From positions 1 to 64,000 of the forward strand of contig CAJXKJ010000010.1 in NCBI GenBank assembly GCA_913055605.1: a stretch of 64,000 nucleotides of DNA. Direction: 5' to 3'. Origin of the DNA: an uncultured Euryhalocaulis sp. (GTDB lineage Bacteria > Pseudomonadota > Alphaproteobacteria > Caulobacterales > Maricaulaceae). Below are positions 28,321-34,289 of the stretch, piece after piece. The notes under the pieces are model-generated. The model was given only the letters and a program-made list of their open reading frames with translations. It ran no database searches and was not told the DNA's origin. A program made the translations under genes and the position numbers. The stretch's first letter is position 1; the number at the start of each line of letters is the position of its first letter.

Positions 28321-28446
28321 TTAGTCCGCGGCGTCCTGCACGGCTTCGCCGGCGCTTTCCACGTCCTGACCGGCGCCTTCGACGGTGTTGCACGCCGCGG
28401 CGCCAAGAGCCGCCAAGGCCACGAGAACGGAAAACAGCTTCTTCAT
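28321..28446 (-). CDS. Entericidin-type small lipoprotein
   Basis: A 41-residue protein. 'MKKLFSVLVALAALGAAAC' is a short signal with a lipobox (Cys19), followed by 'NTVEGAGQDVESAGEAVQDAAD', the EcnA/EcnB pattern of a small amphipathic lipoprotein. In enterobacteria such proteins are stationary-phase, sigma-S-dependent; here an exact EcfG promoter lies 42 bp upstream, the alphaproteobacterial counterpart. The RBS GGAGTTAATCCC is good. A terminator follows. Confidence 0.9.
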   Translation of the reverse strand: MKKLFSVLVALAALGAAACNTVEGAGQDVESAGEAVQDAAD

Positions 28447-28487
28447 GGGATTAACTCCGGTTATTGGCTAGCTGGGTACCGGCTGCC

Positions 28488-28512
28488 AACGATTGGGCGG
28501 AGCAAGGGTTCC
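28488..28512 (-). promoter_or_regulatory. EcfG-type promoter, exact match, for the entericidin gene
   Basis: Minus strand GGAAC (28512-28508), 16 nt, CGTT (28491-28488). Predicted start near 28481, leaving a leader of about 35 nt. Confidence 0.85.
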
Positions 28513-28604
28513 GGTTTTCCCCGCAAGCGCGCGATTTTCCGTGGCTATTAGGTCCGCCTCGAATTATTGATCCATATTATAATTGCTTGCAGCGGGGAGC
28601 GGGC

Positions 28605-28967
28605 ATGACCCGGGTGGATCACATTACGTTGCCGGTCAAAGACTGGCGCGCGTCGCGGGACTGGTACATCGCCAATCTGGGTTTCCGCCTGGCCGCCGAC
28701 ATGCCCGAGCAGATGACCGCGGCGGTGCGCGACGACGGCGAATTCACCCTGTTCTTCGTTTCGGCCGACGTGCCCTCCTGCCCGGGGCTGAGCTTCACGC
28801 TGGACGTGGAGGACGTGCACGCCGTGCATCAGCGCCTGACCCAGCGCGGGGCGGCGTTCGAGCACGGCCCCCAGGCCATGGACTGGGGCTATGGCGCGGA
28901 GCTGCGCGACCTGAACGGCTATTCTCTGAGGATCCGGGGCAAGGCCCAGGGCGCGGCGAACGGCTGA
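28605..28967 (+). CDS. VOC family protein
   Basis: A 120-residue single-chain VOC protein ('RVDHITLPVKDWRASRDWYIANLGF', 'FTLDVEDVHAVHQRLTQRG', 'GAELRDLNGYSLRI'). The N-terminal His of 'VDHITL' is a metal candidate, but the final Glu is replaced by Ser-Leu-Arg, so metal binding is doubtful. ATG 28605 follows a GGGGAG site. A perfect TATAAT (28578-28583) sits 22 bp upstream without a matching -35. It is convergent with ecfG (7 bp apart). Function unknown, possibly resistance or binding. Confidence 0.85.
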   Translation: MTRVDHITLPVKDWRASRDWYIANLGFRLAADMPEQMTAAVRDDGEFTLFFVSADVPSCPGLSFTLDVEDVHAVHQRLTQRGAAFEHGPQAMDWGYGAELRDLNGYSLRIRGKAQGAANG

Positions 28968-28974
28968 AGGGCGG

Positions 28975-29613
28975 TCAGTCCCGCTTCTTGATCTTCATGC
29001 CGGCGCGGTCGGCCAGCGCGTCGGCGTCGCGCAGAATGCTGTCCATCGCCTGCGTCGCGGAGACCGAGCGGCCTTCCTTGTCGCCCGCGCCGCGCGTTTC
29101 GGCCATCAGGCCCTCCAGCGCGCGGCGGGCGCGGTTCACCCGGCTCTTGATCGTGCCCACGGCGCATCCGCAGATGTCCGCCGCCTCTTCATAGGCGAAG
29201 CCGCCGGCGCCGACGAGGATCAGCGCCTCGCGCTGTTCCTCGGGCAGTTTGGTCATCGCGTGGCGGAGGTCTTCGAGGTCCAGGATCGTGTCCTGGTCGG
29301 CCGGCGCGGTCAGGGTGCGCTCGGCCTTTTCCTCATCCCAGGCGGCCTGGCGCCAGGCGCGGCGCTTTTCGGAATAGAAATGGTTGCGCAGGATCATGAA
29401 GGTCCAGGCCTTCATGTTGGTGCCCGGCTGGAAGCTGTCGCGCGCGTTCCACGCCTTCACCAGCGCTTCCTGCGCCAGATCGTCGGCGGCTTCCCGGTTG
29501 CCGGTCAGGCTTCGGCCGAAGGCGCGCAGATACGGGATCTGCTCGACCAGTTCGGCCTTGAACGCCTCATCGCCCTCCCGCGGGAGCGAGGGATCCTTCT
29601 TTTCCTTGGTCAT
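28975..29613 (-). CDS. ecfG: EcfG-family RNA polymerase sigma factor (general stress response)
   Basis: A 212-residue ECF15-type sigma factor. Region 2 spans about 28-95 ('FGRSLTGNREAADDLAQEALVKAW', 'WTFMILRNHFYSEKRRAW' parts) and region 4 about 115-170 ('LPEEQREALILVGAGGFAYEEAADICGCAVGTIKSR' parts). The C-terminal tail of about 40 residues is charged. It directs RNA polymerase to GGAAC-N16/17-CGTT promoters and is held by NepR until phosphorylated PhyR releases it. Start ATG overlaps the nepR stop (ATGA), so the pair is coupled. Many matching promoters lie within 9 kb. Confidence 0.95.
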   Translation of the reverse strand: MTKEKKDPSLPREGDEAFKAELVEQIPYLRAFGRSLTGNREAADDLAQEALVKAWNARDSFQPGTNMKAWTFMILRNHFYSEKRRAWRQAAWDEEKAERTLTAPADQDTILDLEDLRHAMTKLPEEQREALILVGAGGFAYEEAADICGCAVGTIKSRVNRARRALEGLMAETRGAGDKEGRSVSATQAMDSILRDADALADRAGMKIKKRD

Positions 29614-29795
29614 TTTTTCGACTTCGACTCATCGATCTGGTTCAGCAGATCGGCGAAATCGTCCGGGATCGGTTCGTTCACCACGTCGTCATACATCTGA
29701 CGCAGGCGGCGTCCGATGCCGCTCTGGCGGGACCGGACCTCTTCGTTGCTCCGGTGTTCGCCCTTCTTGGAATCGGGCTTGTCTTTATCCGACAT
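29610..29795 (-). CDS. nepR: Anti-sigma factor NepR
   Basis: A 61-residue protein with the NepR two-helix core: 'IGRRLRQMYDDVVNEPIPDDFADLLNQID' lies at about residues 27-55 (quoted in two parts by position), with charged disordered ends. NepR sequesters EcfG and is itself captured by the sigma-like domain of phosphorylated PhyR. It is divergent from phyR and overlaps ecfG by 4 bp. The GGAAC-N16-CATT site 78 bp upstream suggests that the operon feeds back on itself. Confidence 0.95.
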   Translation of the reverse strand: MSDKDKPDSKKGEHRSNEEVRSRQSGIGRRLRQMYDDVVNEPIPDDFADLLNQIDESKSKK

Positions 29796-29872
29796 TCAGT
29801 ACTGGCCCCCTGGGCAACCCCCGCCCATGCAAAGAATTCCGACCTTCCGCCCGCAAGGCCCCGGGGACGCTA

Positions 29873-29897
29873 AATGCCTGACGCAAATTTGGGTTCC
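29873..29897 (-). promoter_or_regulatory. Candidate EcfG promoter for nepR-ecfG (one mismatch)
   Basis: Minus strand GGAAC (29897-29893), 16 nt, CATT (29876-29873); consensus CGTT. Autoregulation of nepR-ecfG is the rule in this system. Confidence 0.6.
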
Positions 29898-29915
29898 CGG
29901 CGGGATGCAGAAAAT

Positions 29916-29940
29916 GAAACCTTTTTCCAGCGAGCGTGTT
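29916..29940 (+). promoter_or_regulatory. Candidate EcfG promoter for phyR (two mismatches)
   Basis: Plus strand GAAAC (29916-29920), 16 nt, TGTT (29937-29940). It deviates at one position in each box, so a weaker promoter is expected. Confidence 0.45.
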
Positions 29941-30015
29941 ACACGCCCTGACGCCAGCGCCGCCCCCCAAGCGGCGCTTCAACGGATTTTCAGGGGTACT
30001 TAGGGGAGTTTCCGC

Positions 30016-30813
30016 ATGGGTCTGGCCGATAATCTTGGGCCGCATCTTCCGTATCTGCGCCGGTATGCGCGCGCCCTGACCGGGTCGCAGCGCAGCGGCG
30101 ACGCATATGTGCGCGCCTCGCTGGAGGCGCTGCTGGCCGGCGACACCGAGCTGGAGGAGGATTTGTCCCCGCGCGTCGCCCTGTACCGGCTGTTCCACGC
30201 GATCTGGGTGTCCTCGGCCCCCGCGAACGAGGCCGGCGGAGACGATTCCGACGCCGACCGCCCGGCCGACCGCCTGATGAAGCTGGCCCCGGCCAGCCGG
30301 CAGGCGCTGCTGCTGACCGCCATGGAAGGCTTCAGCAACAAGGAGGCCGCGCGCATCCTGGATGTCGAGGAAGACGCCGTCGACAAGATGGTCGCCGACG
30401 CCCAGGCCGAGATCGAGCAGGAGCTGGCCACCGACGTCCTGATCATCGAGGACGAGCCGGTCATCGCAATGGATATCGAGTCCATGGTGCGGGAGCTGGG
30501 CCACAACGTGACCAGCGTCGCCACCACGCGCGACGAGGCCGTGAAGGCGGCCCGCGAGAACCCGCCGGGCCTGGTGCTGGCCGACATCCAGCTGGCCGAC
30601 GGATCGTCCGGGATCGACGCGGTGAAGAGCATTCTGGGCAGCCACGACGTGCCGGTGATCTTCATCACCGCCTATCCCGAGCGGCTGCTGACCGGGGAGC
30701 GGCCGGAGCCGGCTTTCCTGATCACCAAGCCCTTCCTGCCGCAGACGGTGAAGGCCGCGATCGGACAGGCCCTGTTCTTCCATCCCCGGGGACGGCAATC
30801 TAGCGCTGCGTGA
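30016..30813 (+). CDS. phyR: Response regulator PhyR (sigma-like anti-anti-sigma factor)
   Basis: A 265-residue protein with an N-terminal sigma-factor-like domain (about 1-135; degenerate region 2 'LRRYARALTGSQRSGDAYVRASLEALL' and region 4 'APASRQALLLTAMEGFSNKEAARIL') and a C-terminal receiver (about 140-260) with acidic pocket 'IIEDEP', phospho-acceptor Asp190 in 'LVLADIQLADG', 'FITAYPERL' and Lys in 'FLITKPF'. Phosphorylation opens the sigma-like domain to capture NepR. It is divergent from nepR-ecfG. No HWE/HisKA2 sensor kinase gene lies next to it in this window. Confidence 0.96.
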   Translation: MGLADNLGPHLPYLRRYARALTGSQRSGDAYVRASLEALLAGDTELEEDLSPRVALYRLFHAIWVSSAPANEAGGDDSDADRPADRLMKLAPASRQALLLTAMEGFSNKEAARILDVEEDAVDKMVADAQAEIEQELATDVLIIEDEPVIAMDIESMVRELGHNVTSVATTRDEAVKAARENPPGLVLADIQLADGSSGIDAVKSILGSHDVPVIFITAYPERLLTGERPEPAFLITKPFLPQTVKAAIGQALFFHPRGRQSSAA

Positions 30814-30845
30814 GCCAGATTCCGTCCGAAACGGACTGGATTTGA

Positions 30846-30870
30846 GGAACGCGAAGGCCCGACACGGGTT
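30846..30870 (+). promoter_or_regulatory. Candidate EcfG promoter for the DUF883 gene
   Basis: GGAAC (30846-30850), 16 nt, GGTT (30867-30870); one mismatch to CGTT. Predicted start near 30877, 37 nt before the ATG. Confidence 0.7.
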
Positions 30871-30913
30871 GAGTCGGGCGTGTTCACGCAACTAGCTTGA
30901 AGGAGTGCCTCTA

Positions 30914-31204
30914 ATGGCCGCCGCCGACGAAAAGCTGATCTCCACCGAGGAAGCCGCCCAGCTGAAGGGCGATATCGAAGCGATCCGCAAGGATATCAAA
31001 CAGCTGTTCACGGACCTGACGAAATTGACCAAGAACGAAGCCGATTACGCCGGCCGCAAGGCCACCGAGCTGAAGGGCGCCGCGGTTGACGCCGCCAAGG
31101 AGCGCCGGGACGAAGTCGAGGACTACGTCAAGGAGCATCCGCTGGGCGCGCTGGCCGCCGCCGCGGGCGTGGGCTTCGTGCTGGCTCTGCTGGTGGGTCG
31201 TTGA
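30914..31204 (+). CDS. DUF883 (ElaB/YqjD-like) membrane-anchored protein
   Basis: A 96-residue protein: a long amphipathic, charged coiled-coil helix (about 1-70, 'EAIRKDIKQLFTDLTKLTKNEADYAGRKATELKGAAVDAAKERRDEVE' region) followed by 'HPLGALAAAAGVGFVLALLVGR', the C-terminal transmembrane helix and Gly-Arg end typical of the family. In E. coli the relatives ElaB and YqjD are sigma-S-dependent and bind ribosomes at the membrane; here the gene has an EcfG-like promoter. It overlaps the next gene's TTG start. Confidence 0.9.
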   Translation: MAAADEKLISTEEAAQLKGDIEAIRKDIKQLFTDLTKLTKNEADYAGRKATELKGAAVDAAKERRDEVEDYVKEHPLGALAAAAGVGFVLALLVGR

Positions 31205-31593
31205 TCCGGAAGTTTCTTCCAAGCTTTGCACTGATCGTCGTAGCGTGGATTTGCGTGCTGGCCTGCGCCGGCGCGCTTACCGCGGCCGCGGCGATCTGGC
31301 TGTCGGAGTATTGGGGCGCGATCGGCGCGTTGCTGGCGGTAGCCGGCTTCCTGGCCGTCGCGGCGCTGGTGTCGTTCGGCCTGTCTATGGCGATCGGCCG
31401 GGCCGCCTCCAAACAATCCGACCCGGTCAGCGACACGATCGACGGGCTGTGGCGCACCCACCCGGCCGCCGTCATGGCGGTGACCGGGCTGGCCGTGTTC
31501 TTCCTGGCCCGCAAGCCGATGCTGATCACGCGCGCCTTCACCGCGATCATGCGCTCCAGCGCGGCGGTGCTGATGTTGCGCAAATTCTTGTAA
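31201..31593 (+). CDS. Phage-holin-superfamily-like small membrane protein
   Basis: A 130-residue protein with two strongly hydrophobic helices (about 8-33 and 40-67), a charged loop and a third weaker hydrophobic stretch (about 88-103). This resembles the YqjE/holin_X superfamily proteins that accompany YqjD/DUF883 proteins. The start is a TTG at 31201 overlapping the previous TGA, giving translational coupling. It is probably the second gene of a yqjD-yqjE-like stress operon. Confidence 0.75.
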   Translation: MIRKFLPSFALIVVAWICVLACAGALTAAAAIWLSEYWGAIGALLAVAGFLAVAALVSFGLSMAIGRAASKQSDPVSDTIDGLWRTHPAAVMAVTGLAVFFLARKPMLITRAFTAIMRSSAAVLMLRKFL

Positions 31594-31663
31594 AGTCCGC
31601 GCGAGCGGTCCAGTCAGGCCCCGCCGCCTGCACCTGGCAAATGAATGATGAGGGAGACCATCA

Positions 31664-32293
31664 ATGAGCTTTTCGCTGCCCGACCTGCCGTATGACAAAT
31701 CGGCGCTGGATCCGCACATCTCCGCGGAGACGCTGACCTTCCACCACGACAAGCACCACGCGACCTATGTCACCAAGACCAACGACGCCATCAAGGGCAC
31801 GGACCTGGAGGGCAAGTCGCTGGAAGAGGTGATCAAGGCGGCGGAGCAGAAGGGCGACAAGGGCCTGTACAACAACTCCGCGCAGACCTGGAACCACACC
31901 TTCTACTGGAATTCCATGAGCCCGAATCCGGGTGCGCCGTCGGATGCGCTGAAGGGCGCGATAGACGCGGCCTTCGGCGGGATGGACGCCTTCCTGGACA
32001 AGTTCAAGGCGGCCGGCGCGGGCCATTTCGCCTCTGGCTGGGTGTGGCTGTTCGCCAAGCGCGACGGGTCGGTGGAAATCCGCGACACGCATGACGCGGC
32101 CTGCCTGCTGCCGTCGGACGAGGGCGTTCCGCTGCTGCTCGTCGATGTGTGGGAGCACGCGTATTACGTCGACCGGCGCAACGACCGCCCGGCCTATCTG
32201 GCGGCCGTCACCGGCAATCTGCTGAACTGGGATCTGGCCAGCTCCCAGTACGACGCGGCCAAGGCCGGCCAGACCGGCTGGACGCACCCGTAA
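31664..32293 (+). CDS. sodB: Superoxide dismutase (Fe/Mn type)
   Basis: A 209-residue cytoplasmic SOD. Metal ligands: His27 in 'LTFHHDKHH', His in 'TWNHTFYWNSM', Asp and His in 'LLLVDVWEHAYYVDR'. The 'NHTFYWNSMSPN' block and Gln-free C-terminal motif favour the iron form found in alphaproteobacteria. The ATG has a GGGAG site. It converts superoxide to H2O2 and O2. It carries no GGAAC-type promoter, unlike its neighbours, and ends at a strong hairpin. Confidence 0.95.
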   Translation: MSFSLPDLPYDKSALDPHISAETLTFHHDKHHATYVTKTNDAIKGTDLEGKSLEEVIKAAEQKGDKGLYNNSAQTWNHTFYWNSMSPNPGAPSDALKGAIDAAFGGMDAFLDKFKAAGAGHFASGWVWLFAKRDGSVEIRDTHDAACLLPSDEGVPLLLVDVWEHAYYVDRRNDRPAYLAAVTGNLLNWDLASSQYDAAKAGQTGWTHP

Positions 32294-32305
32294 GCAGGCG
32301 GGTCC

Positions 32306-32330
32306 GGAACTCCGCCGGACCGCACACGTT
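32306..32330 (+). promoter_or_regulatory. EcfG-type promoter, exact match, for the DUF1328 gene
   Basis: GGAAC (32306-32310), 16 nt, CGTT (32327-32330). The start would fall near 32337, at the base of the hairpin at 32335-32361. Confidence 0.85.
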
Positions 32331-32334
32331 TCAG

Positions 32335-32368
32335 GCAGCGCGCGGGTAGACCGCGCGCTGCTTTTCTT
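32335..32368 (+). terminator. sodB terminator or 5' leader hairpin of the DUF1328 transcript
   Basis: GCAGCGCGCGG (32335-32345) pairs with CCGCGCGCTGC (32351-32361), followed by TTTTCTT. It terminates sodB transcripts, but the exact EcfG promoter just upstream would place the same hairpin at the very 5' end of the next mRNA. Confidence 0.8.
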
Positions 32369-32379
32369 AGGAGTCTGCG

Positions 32380-32553
32380 ATGCTTGGCTGGGCCCTTATC
32401 TTCCTGATCCTCGCGCTGGTCGCGGCGTATTTCGGCTTTGTCGGCGTCGCCGGGGTGAGCATGGCCATCGCGAAAATCCTTTTCGTGATCTTCCTGATCC
32501 TGCTGGTCGTCAGCGCGATCGCCGGCGCCGTTCGCGGCCGCCCGCCCGTCTGA
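32380..32553 (+). CDS. DUF1328 (YtjA-like) small membrane protein
   Basis: A 57-residue protein: '[20 protein letters not shown]' opens the first transmembrane helix, '[13 protein letters not shown]' links to the second, and it ends 'VRGRPPV'. This is the DUF1328 family, common, tiny and often stress-induced. The ATG has a TTAGGAG site. It is the only gene between an exact EcfG promoter and a bidirectional terminator, so it is probably monocistronic. Confidence 0.92.
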
Positions 32554-32580
32554 CGTCCCGGCCCTTCGCTGGGGAGACCG

Positions 32581-32617
32581 AAAAAAACGCCCCGCGGCTG
32601 GGCCCGCGGGGCGTTTT
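32581..32617. terminator. Bidirectional intrinsic terminator
   Basis: AAAAAACGCCCCGCGG and CCGCGGGGCGTTTT around a short loop, between the DUF1328 gene (+) and the small TM gene (-). Confidence 0.88.
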
Positions 32618-32643
32618 GCTGTCTGGAAACGGGACAGGGCCGC

Positions 32644-32892
32644 CTATTCGGCGGCTTCGGTTTCCGTGCCCGGCACGACGTCCACGGCCTCTTCCGCGGT
32701 GACGCCGGCCGCCTCGCTCCGCTCGATTGCGGTCTGACCCGCGGCCTGATCCGCGGTGTTGTCCGCCGCGAACAGCGAGAACAGGCCCCACAGCGCCAGC
32801 GCCGCCAGCACGGTGGAGACCACCAGGATGACGAAAATATCCAGGCCCCGTCCGCCTTGTTTCGCCTTGGTTTCCGATTCTTCGATCGTCAC
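32644..32892 (-). CDS. Small single-TM protein with acidic tail
   Basis: An 82-residue protein: a charged N-terminus (about 1-18), one transmembrane helix ('DIFVILVVSTVLAALALWGL', about 19-38), then an Ala/Glu-rich acidic tail to the end. The GTG at 32892 has an AGGAG site 8 nt upstream and fits the predicted EcfG start near 32923. No family recognised. It is transcribed away from the tiny gene at 32963 from a shared palindromic promoter. Confidence 0.75.
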   Translation of the reverse strand: MTIEESETKAKQGGRGLDIFVILVVSTVLAALALWGLFSLFAADNTADQAAGQTAIERSEAAGVTAEEAVDVVPGTETEAAE

Positions 32893-32927
32893 CGTTTCGC
32901 TCCTTTTGTCGTTCCGGCTCAGACATT

Positions 32928-32955
32928 GGAACGGGCAGGGCGCGTCTCGCGTTCC
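32928..32955. promoter_or_regulatory. Palindromic bidirectional EcfG-type promoter, exact in both directions
   Basis: GGAACG (32928-32933) and its complement CGTTCC (32950-32955) create GGAAC-N17-CGTT on both strands. Plus direction leads to the tiny TM gene (start near 32960), minus direction to the small TM gene (start near 32923). Confidence 0.82.
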
Positions 32956-32962
32956 CGGTTTT

Positions 32963-33127
32963 ATGTTTGCTGGACTACGATATTGGCGTTTCGTGGCGCT
33001 CGCGATCTTTGCGGTGCTGCTGATTTTGGCCTTCATGATGTTCGGGGGATCGCCGGCCCAGAGCCCGGATTCCGTTGGAATCCCAGCGGAATCGCCGGTT
33101 CCGGCGGGGGCGCCTGCAGACAGCTGA
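32963..33127 (+). CDS. Tiny single-TM protein, possibly leaderless
   Basis: A 54-residue protein: a short basic N-terminus 'MFAGLRYWR', a transmembrane helix ('FVALAIFAVLLILAFMMFG'), then a Pro/Ala/Ser-rich tail with three 'SP'/'AP'-type repeats. No Shine-Dalgarno is visible. The predicted EcfG transcription start lies 2-4 nt before the ATG, so the mRNA would be almost leaderless. The evidence is promoter position plus a clean N-in TM design; no family is recognised. Confidence 0.55.
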   Translation: MFAGLRYWRFVALAIFAVLLILAFMMFGGSPAQSPDSVGIPAESPVPAGAPADS

Positions 33128-33145
33128 TTTTTTTTCAGCAGGCAG

Positions 33146-33170
33146 GGAACGCTTGGGGGGCGCCCACGTT
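33146..33170 (+). promoter_or_regulatory. EcfG-type promoter, exact match, upstream of a putative sRNA
   Basis: GGAAC (33146-33150), 16 nt, CGTT (33167-33170). There is no credible coding sequence downstream before the terminator. Confidence 0.82.
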
Positions 33171-33176
33171 TACACG

Positions 33177-33299
33177 TCACGGACATGCGATGCGCGGGGC
33201 TGTCGTCCCTCCCCCCTTCCCCCGCCAGTTCCGCGGCGCAGGTCCCCTAAAAGTCCAAAGGCCGCCGCATCCCCCAAATGCGGCGGCCTTTCAATTTTT
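33177..33299 (+). ncRNA. Putative EcfG-dependent small RNA with C-rich loop (GsrN-like)
   Basis: Predicted transcript of about 120 nt. Hairpin 1 spans 33191-33240: UGCGC pairs with GCGCA, GGGGCUG pairs with CAGUUCC (two G-U pairs), with a GCG bulge; it presents a 23-nt loop (33203-33225) that is almost all C and U. Hairpin 2 is the terminator, a 14-bp stem 33257-33270/33278-33291 with loop CCCCCAA, then CAATTTTT. A single-stranded linker joins them. The design (sigma-EcfG promoter, C-rich 5' loop, intrinsic terminator) resembles the Caulobacter general stress sRNA GsrN. The start position is inferred from the promoter. Confidence 0.65.
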
Positions 33300-33326
33300 C
33301 AGACACTTAGAGGCTGAAAACCCCGC

Positions 33327-34289
33327 CTAGCGGGCGTTCCAGAGCTCCTGCGGGATGGTGAAGCTGCCGTCCCAGTACGGCCCCCAGTTCGGCAGGGTGA
33401 CGTCCGGATCCGCATACAGCATGGCCGAATACACGTCGCTGATGCCCTCGGAGCCCGCGATCCAGAAATATTCCGAGAAATAATTCCGGCGCTTGGGCGT
33501 GCCCGGCGTGCGCAGGAACACCGCATAGGCCAGGACGACCTGCTGTTCCTCGTCGATCACCGGATAGCGGCGGGCGGCCACGGCCTGGACGTCGAAACTG
33601 CCCTGGCCGGAGGTGCAGTCCGACCGGCCCTCGAACCCGTCATCCCGCCGGTCCTCCGGCAGGGGCCGGCCGGTGACCAGCAGGCCGTTTTCCCGCCGCA
33701 TGCAGCCCGGCTTGGCGATGATCAGGTCGGCGTTGGCCTGTGCGATGCCGTCGAAATAGGAGTTCGCGACCGCCTCCAGATCGCGGCGCGACAGGCGCTG
33801 GCTTTCCGGAACGGTGCGGGCGGCGGGCGGCGGCTCGGCCACCAGGCCTTCAAGATTGTACATCACGGTCGGGATCGCGCCGTCGATGCTGACATCGTTC
33901 TGGTGAACGGTGTTCCACTCCGCCTCGACGATCTCGCCCGCATCGACCTTCAGGCGCAGATTGACGATGGCCTGTTCGCCCTTGTCCGTCGCGGTGCCGA
34001 AATAGGCGGCGTTGCCGCTGACCGGGTCGTAGAAGCGCCGGTCCAGCGGGCCCATCGCCGTCAGCGTTTCCCACACGCCGTCGCCGACCGGAACGCCGCG
34101 TGCGTTCTCGGTCTGGCGGAAGCCGATGGACAGCGGAACCTGGTCCGGCGCGTTCGCCGCGACGGCGTCCAGATAGGCCTGCAGGTGGCCGGCCAGGCAG
34201 TCGCGGCCGCAGTCTGTGTCCTGCGCCTGCGCGCCGGCGCCCATCGCCGCGGCGGCGGCCGCGCCCATCATCCAAGTGCGTAACGTCAT
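33327..34289 (-). CDS. Exported protein of unknown function
   Basis: A 320-residue protein with a signal peptide (about 1-23, ending 'GAGAQAQ'). The mature part starts with a Cys pair ('DCGRDCLAGHLQAYLDAVAAN') and shows an NTF2/SnoaL-like pattern in which 'LEAVANSYFDGIAQANADLI' and 'YAVFLRTPGTPKRRNYFSEYFWI' recur. Further Cys at 'KPGCMRRENG' and 'SDCTSGQGSF' could form disulfides. The sequence resembles secreted NTF2-like proteins, but no activity is known to me. ATG 34289 has a GGAGG-like site (AGGATACAG). It runs against the sRNA terminator. Confidence 0.7.
   Translation of the reverse strand: MTLRTWMMGAAAAAAMGAGAQAQDTDCGRDCLAGHLQAYLDAVAANAPDQVPLSIGFRQTENARGVPVGDGVWETLTAMGPLDRRFYDPVSGNAAYFGTATDKGEQAIVNLRLKVDAGEIVEAEWNTVHQNDVSIDGAIPTVMYNLEGLVAEPPPAARTVPESQRLSRRDLEAVANSYFDGIAQANADLIIAKPGCMRRENGLLVTGRPLPEDRRDDGFEGRSDCTSGQGSFDVQAVAARRYPVIDEEQQVVLAYAVFLRTPGTPKRRNYFSEYFWIAGSEGISDVYSAMLYADPDVTLPNWGPYWDGSFTIPQELWNAR

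Follow-up and report, generated by a model that had tools for sequence, protein, structure and literature searches.

Does the stretch at positions 33146–33300, within a general stress response locus, hold the gene for a small RNA (sRNA), and if so, of what kind? The window (the whole stretch of DNA analyzed, 64,000 nucleotides [nt]; GC content, 68%) contains this locus at 28401–33500, with ecfG and nepR on the minus strand and phyR on the plus strand. The ECF sigma factor gene ecfG (28975–29613; Pfam Sigma70_r2 and Sigma70_r4_2) adjoins nepR (29610–29795; Pfam NepR, 62.2 bits), and phyR lies at 30016–30813 (Pfam PhyR_sigma2, PhyR_sigma-like, and Response_reg). Behind phyR follow genes for a DUF883 protein, a holin-like protein (score under the Pfam cut-off), an Fe/Mn superoxide dismutase (SOD; 31664–32293, plus strand, assigned by Pfam), and a small membrane protein, then a small minus-strand ORF and the candidate sRNA, 2.3 kb downstream of phyR. 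We consider it likely that 33146–33300 is the gene for a trans-acting sRNA of ~120 nt, which is transcribed by EcfG and pairs with G-rich leaders through its loop.

The EcfG-type promoter GGAACGCTTGGGGGGCGCCCACGTT (33146–33170, plus strand) is an exact match, with a −35 GGAAC, a 16-nt spacer, and a −10 CGTT. Eight exact EcfG-type sites were found in the window, compared to 0.83 on average (maximum, 3) over 30 dinucleotide-preserving shuffles. Five of them fall within 28401–33500, where 300 shuffles gave 0.13 (maximum, 2). Another exact promoter (32306–32330) precedes the small membrane-protein-like ORF at 32380–32553, and a palindrome at 32928–32955, which separates a minus-strand small gene from a plus-strand small ORF, can be read as an EcfG promoter in either direction (GGAAC-N17-CGTT). 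The small ORF at 32963–33127 had no homologue in the phyR region of genome G003 (locus L054; best E value, 1.1).

The predicted sRNA spans 33177–33300 on the plus strand, its start placed from the promoter and its end from the T run of the terminator. Its 5′ hairpin (33181–33245) is predicted to comprise a ten-pair helix (33193–33202/33226–33235), two inner pairs, and irregular outer pairs. At the top is a C-rich apical loop, UCGUCCCUCCCCCCUUCCCCCGC (33203–33225; 16 C, 5 T, and 2 G of 23), which reads CCCUCCCCCC. The core of the loop, CCCUCCC, has an unpaired probability of 0.98 in the predicted fold and is a predicted seed for G-rich mRNA. Over its two strands, the window has 13 places with at least 16 C in 23 nt; three of these are on the plus strand, and this loop is the first of them. 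An intrinsic terminator follows at 33257–33291 (14-bp stem, 33257–33270/33278–33291; loop CCCCCAA; then CAATTTTT), which may also end the convergent minus-strand gene. The promoter, the hairpin with its 23-nt loop, and the 14-bp terminator stem were all found where a preliminary description of this DNA had located them. The fold of the 122-nt RNA has a free energy of −56.9 kcal/mol (z = −5.46 against shuffles). The first 105 nt past the promoter, which lack the 3′ arm of the terminator, were as stable as their shuffles (z = 0.2), and the strong z-score of the whole RNA is therefore mostly due to the terminator.

When the whole RNA was used as a BLAST query against 119 genomes of the family, five had matches at E ≤ 0.01, namely the genome of the window itself and four with matches of 19 to 28 bases; the orthologue in G003 was missed. 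DNA matches in loci L003 and L004 were rejected, as they are located in unrelated sequence. Because BLAST yielded no convincing homologue, phyR was taken as the anchor. In G003, the one other genome in the set from this genus, an exact EcfG promoter is located 3.1 kb downstream of phyR, followed by GUCGUCCCUCCCCCUACCCCUGUC and a terminator. The same genes precede it, those for the DUF883 protein, the holin-like protein, SOD (66% identity), and the small membrane protein (74% identity). The loop is nearly identical to that in the window, with a one-base indel, and the nine-pair core of the terminator (GGCCGCCGC/GCGGCGGCC) is identical. Among the 12 pairs of the inner helix, six are unchanged, two are changed on one side, four are changed on both sides, and none is broken, while in a control with slid partners 38 to 50% of the cells were paired. 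Since only two sequences are compared and 43 of 500 shuffles reach these values, this covariation is good but not overwhelming.

Of the 119 family genomes, 46 contain phyR at E ≤ 1e-30, and 51 phyR regions, several of them cut by contig ends, were fetched. An EcfG-promoted hairpin with a C-rich loop was found in 12 of the 46 genomes, from six genera (G000, G003, G010, G013, G015, G029, G061, G063, G081, G089, G095, and G102). These copies comprise 8 of 24 near-phyR candidates and one from a further scan, all chosen by eye, two more from a later scan, and the RNA of the window; the discarded near-phyR candidates looked like coding sequence or mRNA leaders. Ten of the 12 copies are within 10 kb of phyR, whereas those in G029 and G015 are 16 kb and 1.3 Mb away, respectively. 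Between genera, the stems differ strongly, but the loop retains CCCUCCC or a plain C run. In 13 folded RNAs (those of the 12 carriers and of G087), the best-exposed C motif had an unpaired probability of 0.77 to 0.99, and the z-scores of the hairpins ranged from +0.2 to −6.0. A terminator with a T-rich tail is clearly present in six carriers (G000, G003, G010, G081, G095, and G102); it is partial in G013, G029, and G061 and weak in G015, G063, and G089. The loop conservation in relatives looked for by the preliminary description was thus borne out in G003 and, as a C-rich loop, in 12 genomes, but 34 of the 46 phyR-bearing genomes, some with phyR regions cut by contig ends, showed no clear RNA of this kind.

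Automatic group alignments suggested mixed support for the stems. For G089 and G081, 2 of 21 pairs were changed on both sides and none was broken; for G015 and G029, the corresponding values were 0 of 23 and none, and with G063 added, 5 of 18 and three. The alignment of G061, G102, and G095 gave one pair changed on both sides and seven broken among 29. A family-wide covariance model was not built, because MAFFT misaligned the stems of nine hairpins. The pattern GGAAC-N16,17-CGTT-N25,55-WCCCYCCC was found in 11 of the 119 genomes, each of which belongs to the 46 phyR carriers (Fisher p = 1.3e-5), and a reversed control pattern in four, three of which have phyR. In a class-wide set of 387 genomes, the pattern itself was no more frequent than background, with 17 genomes matched (that of the window among them) versus 22, by our count, for the control. 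Two of the 11 genomes, G081 and G087, are not clean: the match in G081 abuts an ATG, and the pattern misses the other copy in this genome. The element in G087 (L195; G087:C1:573935), 0.28 Mb from phyR, consists of an EcfG promoter and a hairpin with a UUCCCUCCCCCUUCCC loop, lacks a clear terminator, and could be either an sRNA or a leader. Separately, an EcfG-promoted leader in G061 (L194; G061:C3:75034) carries GACCCUCCCCCC shortly ahead of the start codon for a protein that begins with MNSLKDLYIDQLQDLYSADKQ; this C-rich element may act in cis.

What could the loop bind? Its core is the complement of GGGGAGGG, which reads like a strong Shine-Dalgarno sequence. The pattern GGGGAGGG-N2,14-ATG has 60 matches in the genome of the window (reversed pattern, 2) and 33 in G003 (reversed, 5), counts that also cover ATGs that do not start a gene. 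The genome of the window contains katG, with a leader that reads GGGCGGGG...GGGAGG ahead of the ATG. The predicted pairing of this leader with the loop amounts to −34.4 kcal/mol, a value equalled or beaten by 0.6% of 3000 random 75-mers; for a longer katG leader, 2.4% of 2000 random 170-mers equalled or beat the pairing. In G003, the katG leader reached only −16.5 kcal/mol. The pairing with a katG-like leader that the preliminary description had in mind is thus strong in one genome of the genus and weak in the other. The SOD leader paired no better than average (52.6% of random 75-mers equalled or beat it). The sets of genes with GGGGAGGG-ATG hardly overlap between the two genomes: 49 ORFs from the genome of the window and 22 from G003 (at least 40 codons each) gave three protein pairs at E ≤ 1e-5, none of them a convincing conserved target. 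From these pairing data and with no convincing target common to both genomes, the best-supported explanation is that an RNA controlled by EcfG uses its exposed C-rich loop as a seed for pairing with G-rich leaders. Such pairing has been demonstrated for GsrN and supported for sX13, according to passages of PMC5869019 and PMC3771888, respectively.

We therefore read the interval as a real EcfG-dependent sRNA gene, transcription of which we infer from its promoter and terminator. In the proposed mechanism, PhyR would free EcfG from NepR, a switch taken from the literature on relatives, and EcfG would then transcribe the sRNA from the promoter at 33146. The RNA would fold into two hairpins, the 5′ one with CCCUCCCCCC at its apex and the intrinsic terminator showing a second C run. 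Most likely, the CCCUCCCCCC loop pairs with G-rich leaders and Shine-Dalgarno sites; the segments bound would be of the GGGGAGGG type and often the Shine-Dalgarno region itself, so that under stress the sRNA would mainly block ribosome access. It could also activate some messages, as GsrN does katG. Both the pairing and its sign are putative, and repression at the ribosome site for most targets is a guess.

Candidate C-rich RNAs were also seen near phyR outside the family. In 28 of 58 further loci (L127 to L184), an RNA is predicted on the minus strand, 2.0 to 2.5 kb upstream of phyR (e.g., L131:7798–7898). These loci are mostly titled Sphingomonas, with one Stakelama and one unclassified metagenome-assembled genome (MAG). 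The promoter is an exact EcfG type in 17 of the 28, and the other 11 keep GGAAC with a −10 of mostly GGTT or TGTT. The RNA is ~100 nt long and has two hairpins, each with a C-rich loop (GCCCCCCCGCUC and CCCUCCCCCC); 13 of its 27 consensus pairs are changed on both sides. A covariance model (R1) added one further locus (L179:7798–7899, 93.9 bits), giving 29, and matched one of 387 genomes drawn across the class. Rfam 15 gave no match over its cut-off at this RNA in the two loci searched, L131 and L134, the best weak match in L131 being Scr3202 (31.5 bits against a cut-off of 52). The window was not among the matches of R1 in a search of 66 sources at E ≤ 10; with filters off, the best score in 171 bases of the window was 7 bits (E = 0.014 for this stretch), over the terminator. 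These data support the view that the C-rich RNA kept at this locus differs from family to family, either by descent beyond recognition or by convergence.

Two more observations were made in this set. In a Parvibaculum MAG (L130), 2.24 kb upstream of phyR on the minus strand, an EcfG promoter is followed by a 13-bp hairpin with the loop AUUUCCCCGCCCCCCAAGCCCCA, a possible further member of this theme. L127 and L128, titled Steroidobacter and Peristeroidobacter, which we take to be gammaproteobacterial names, encode PhyR proteins 62 to 63% identical to the query, and either transfer or mislabelled records could account for them.

Could the interval encode no functional RNA and consist just of a terminator that serves two convergent genes in both directions, plus a promoter and a C-rich spacer that arose by chance? 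The stem lies between A's and T's, the gene at 33327–34289 converges on it, and the 5′ hairpin alone is, as mentioned, not unusually stable. This gene encodes a secreted-looking protein of no Pfam family; a search with it gave 17 matches in its own genome, counting itself, and at E ≤ 1e-10 no match in any of the other 118 family genomes. It was useless as a synteny anchor, with no match even in G003. Promoter, loop, and terminator core are nevertheless retained in G003, and thus the terminator is not kept merely for that gene. The compensatory stem changes and the recurrence in six genera also argue against a bare terminator, which we regard as very unlikely. A small protein gene, or the leader of a longer transcript, is barely credible. 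A 21-codon ATG...TAA frame (33185–33250) does lie inside the hairpin, so the stretch, which had been described as gene-free, is so in substance rather than to the letter. However, this frame has no ATG-frame counterpart in G003, where the loop differs by the one-base indel, no purine-rich ribosome site precedes its ATG, and no ORF in the interval is common to the window and G003, while the next gene is on the opposite strand, which speaks against a leader.

What remains is whether this sRNA belongs to a known family. If it were GsrN itself (the RF01529 lineage), vertically inherited and with katG as its main target, the mechanism would be the one proposed above, and only descent and target would differ. 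We infer from its position that RF01529, named CC3552, is GsrN; the text of PMC5869019 names R0081 and does not contain "CC3552". According to that source, BLASTn placed GsrN only in Caulobacteraceae, where its homologues lie at the phyR locus downstream of an EcfG promoter, and accordingly the RF01529 matches in two Caulobacter loci (L106 and L108) directly follow an EcfG promoter next to phyR. Bacterial class, promoter type, locus, and C-rich loop are shared with the window RNA, and the strong katG pairing fits as well. Yet the covariance-model comparison envisaged in the preliminary description came out negative: RF01529 had no match in 33100–33330 at E ≤ 10 and no match over its cut-off in any of the 119 family genomes. 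Weak matches (E ≤ 10) occurred in 51 of these, the two in the genome of the window being below the cut-off and on other contigs. In the same genome-wide search, which was run with stricter filters throughout, 4 of 14 control genomes matched, Caulobacter vibrioides included, and one exceeded the cut-off. In addition, the C run is apical here but on the 5′ side under the second hairpin in the predicted folds of three Caulobacter RNAs, and the katG pairing is weak in G003. That the window RNA is GsrN itself is thus unlikely. Nor do we give much credit to an alpha-r14 ("cuckoo") anti-Shine-Dalgarno RNA under EcfG control, a quite unlikely reading, the mechanism of which overlaps the favored one. 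Of all Rfam matches, that of alpha-r14 (RF02344) had the lowest E value (22.9 bits, E = 0.0079 for 131 bases), with both the terminator loop and the apical loop of CCUCC type included in the alignment. In alpha-r14, the stems vary while the CCUCCUCCC motif is constant (PMC10746234, in the passages available). The score is, however, far under the gathering score of 58.8, exact CCUCCUCCC is absent from the loop, two hairpins are predicted rather than three, and none of eight relatives' loci matched this family at E ≤ 10.

In the alphaproteobacterial general stress response, GsrN is a tested case of posttranscriptional control. RNAs that share its type of promoter, its locus, and its loop chemistry, with no recognizable sequence relation to it, are now predicted in another family and in Sphingomonas. 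It is conceivable, though rather doubtful, that the stress locus of alphaproteobacteria regularly comprises, as a fourth element, a riboregulator with a C-rich loop (ecfG-nepR-phyR-sRNA), the stems and topology of which change so fast that the families look unrelated, although loop chemistry and promoter persist. If true, GsrN would hold this place in Caulobacteraceae, the window RNA in the family that contains Robiginitomaculum, a third RNA in Sphingomonas, and perhaps a fourth in Parvibaculum. With such RNAs at hand, one can test whether the PhyR-NepR-EcfG switch generally has a C-rich sRNA among its outputs; homology models alone miss them, while position, promoter, and loop reveal them. 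Neither the window RNA nor the Sphingomonas RNA was described among the literature matches listed, which come mostly from open-access papers. Term searches of two further papers gave no sRNA terms in PMC6599016 and one non-coding RNA, in the reference list, in PMC7083833.

Among known systems, alpha-r14 and NfeR1 of rhizobia resemble the window RNA in combining variable stems with constant unpaired C-rich anti-Shine-Dalgarno motifs (PMC10746234, in part) and differ from it in that the window RNA has an EcfG promoter. PmaR of Agrobacterium and sX13 of Xanthomonas also bind targets through a single-stranded C-rich loop (PMC6234868 and PMC3771888); they belong to other lineages, the passages available mention no EcfG link, and sX13 has three C-rich loops. 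The GsrN-like RNAs predicted in Rhizobiaceae and Brucella were found by similar criteria (EcfG site, proximity to general stress response genes, and C-rich loop; PMC5869019, in part), and transcriptome data back those of R. etli, S. meliloti, and B. abortus, whereas the window RNA is predicted from its sequence. With GsrN, it shares an EcfG/σT promoter, here an exact GGAAC-N16-CGTT, a position near phyR-nepR-ecfG, which is typical of GsrN in relatives but not universal, and an exposed C-rich loop (for GsrN, passages of PMC5869019). The tract of the window RNA is apical and interrupted by U, whereas GsrN has a plain C run between an outer stem and an inner hairpin (predicted folds of L106, L108, and L109). 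Other traits of GsrN are its processing to a stable 5′ isoform and an effect of Hfq. The EcfG-driven sRNA with a C-rich loop that the preliminary description proposed is supported by anatomy, synteny, the orthologue with its compensatory stem changes, and co-occurrence with phyR. The analogy to GsrN drawn there is fair in terms of function, and the window RNA probably works like GsrN; that it is GsrN by descent is unsupported.
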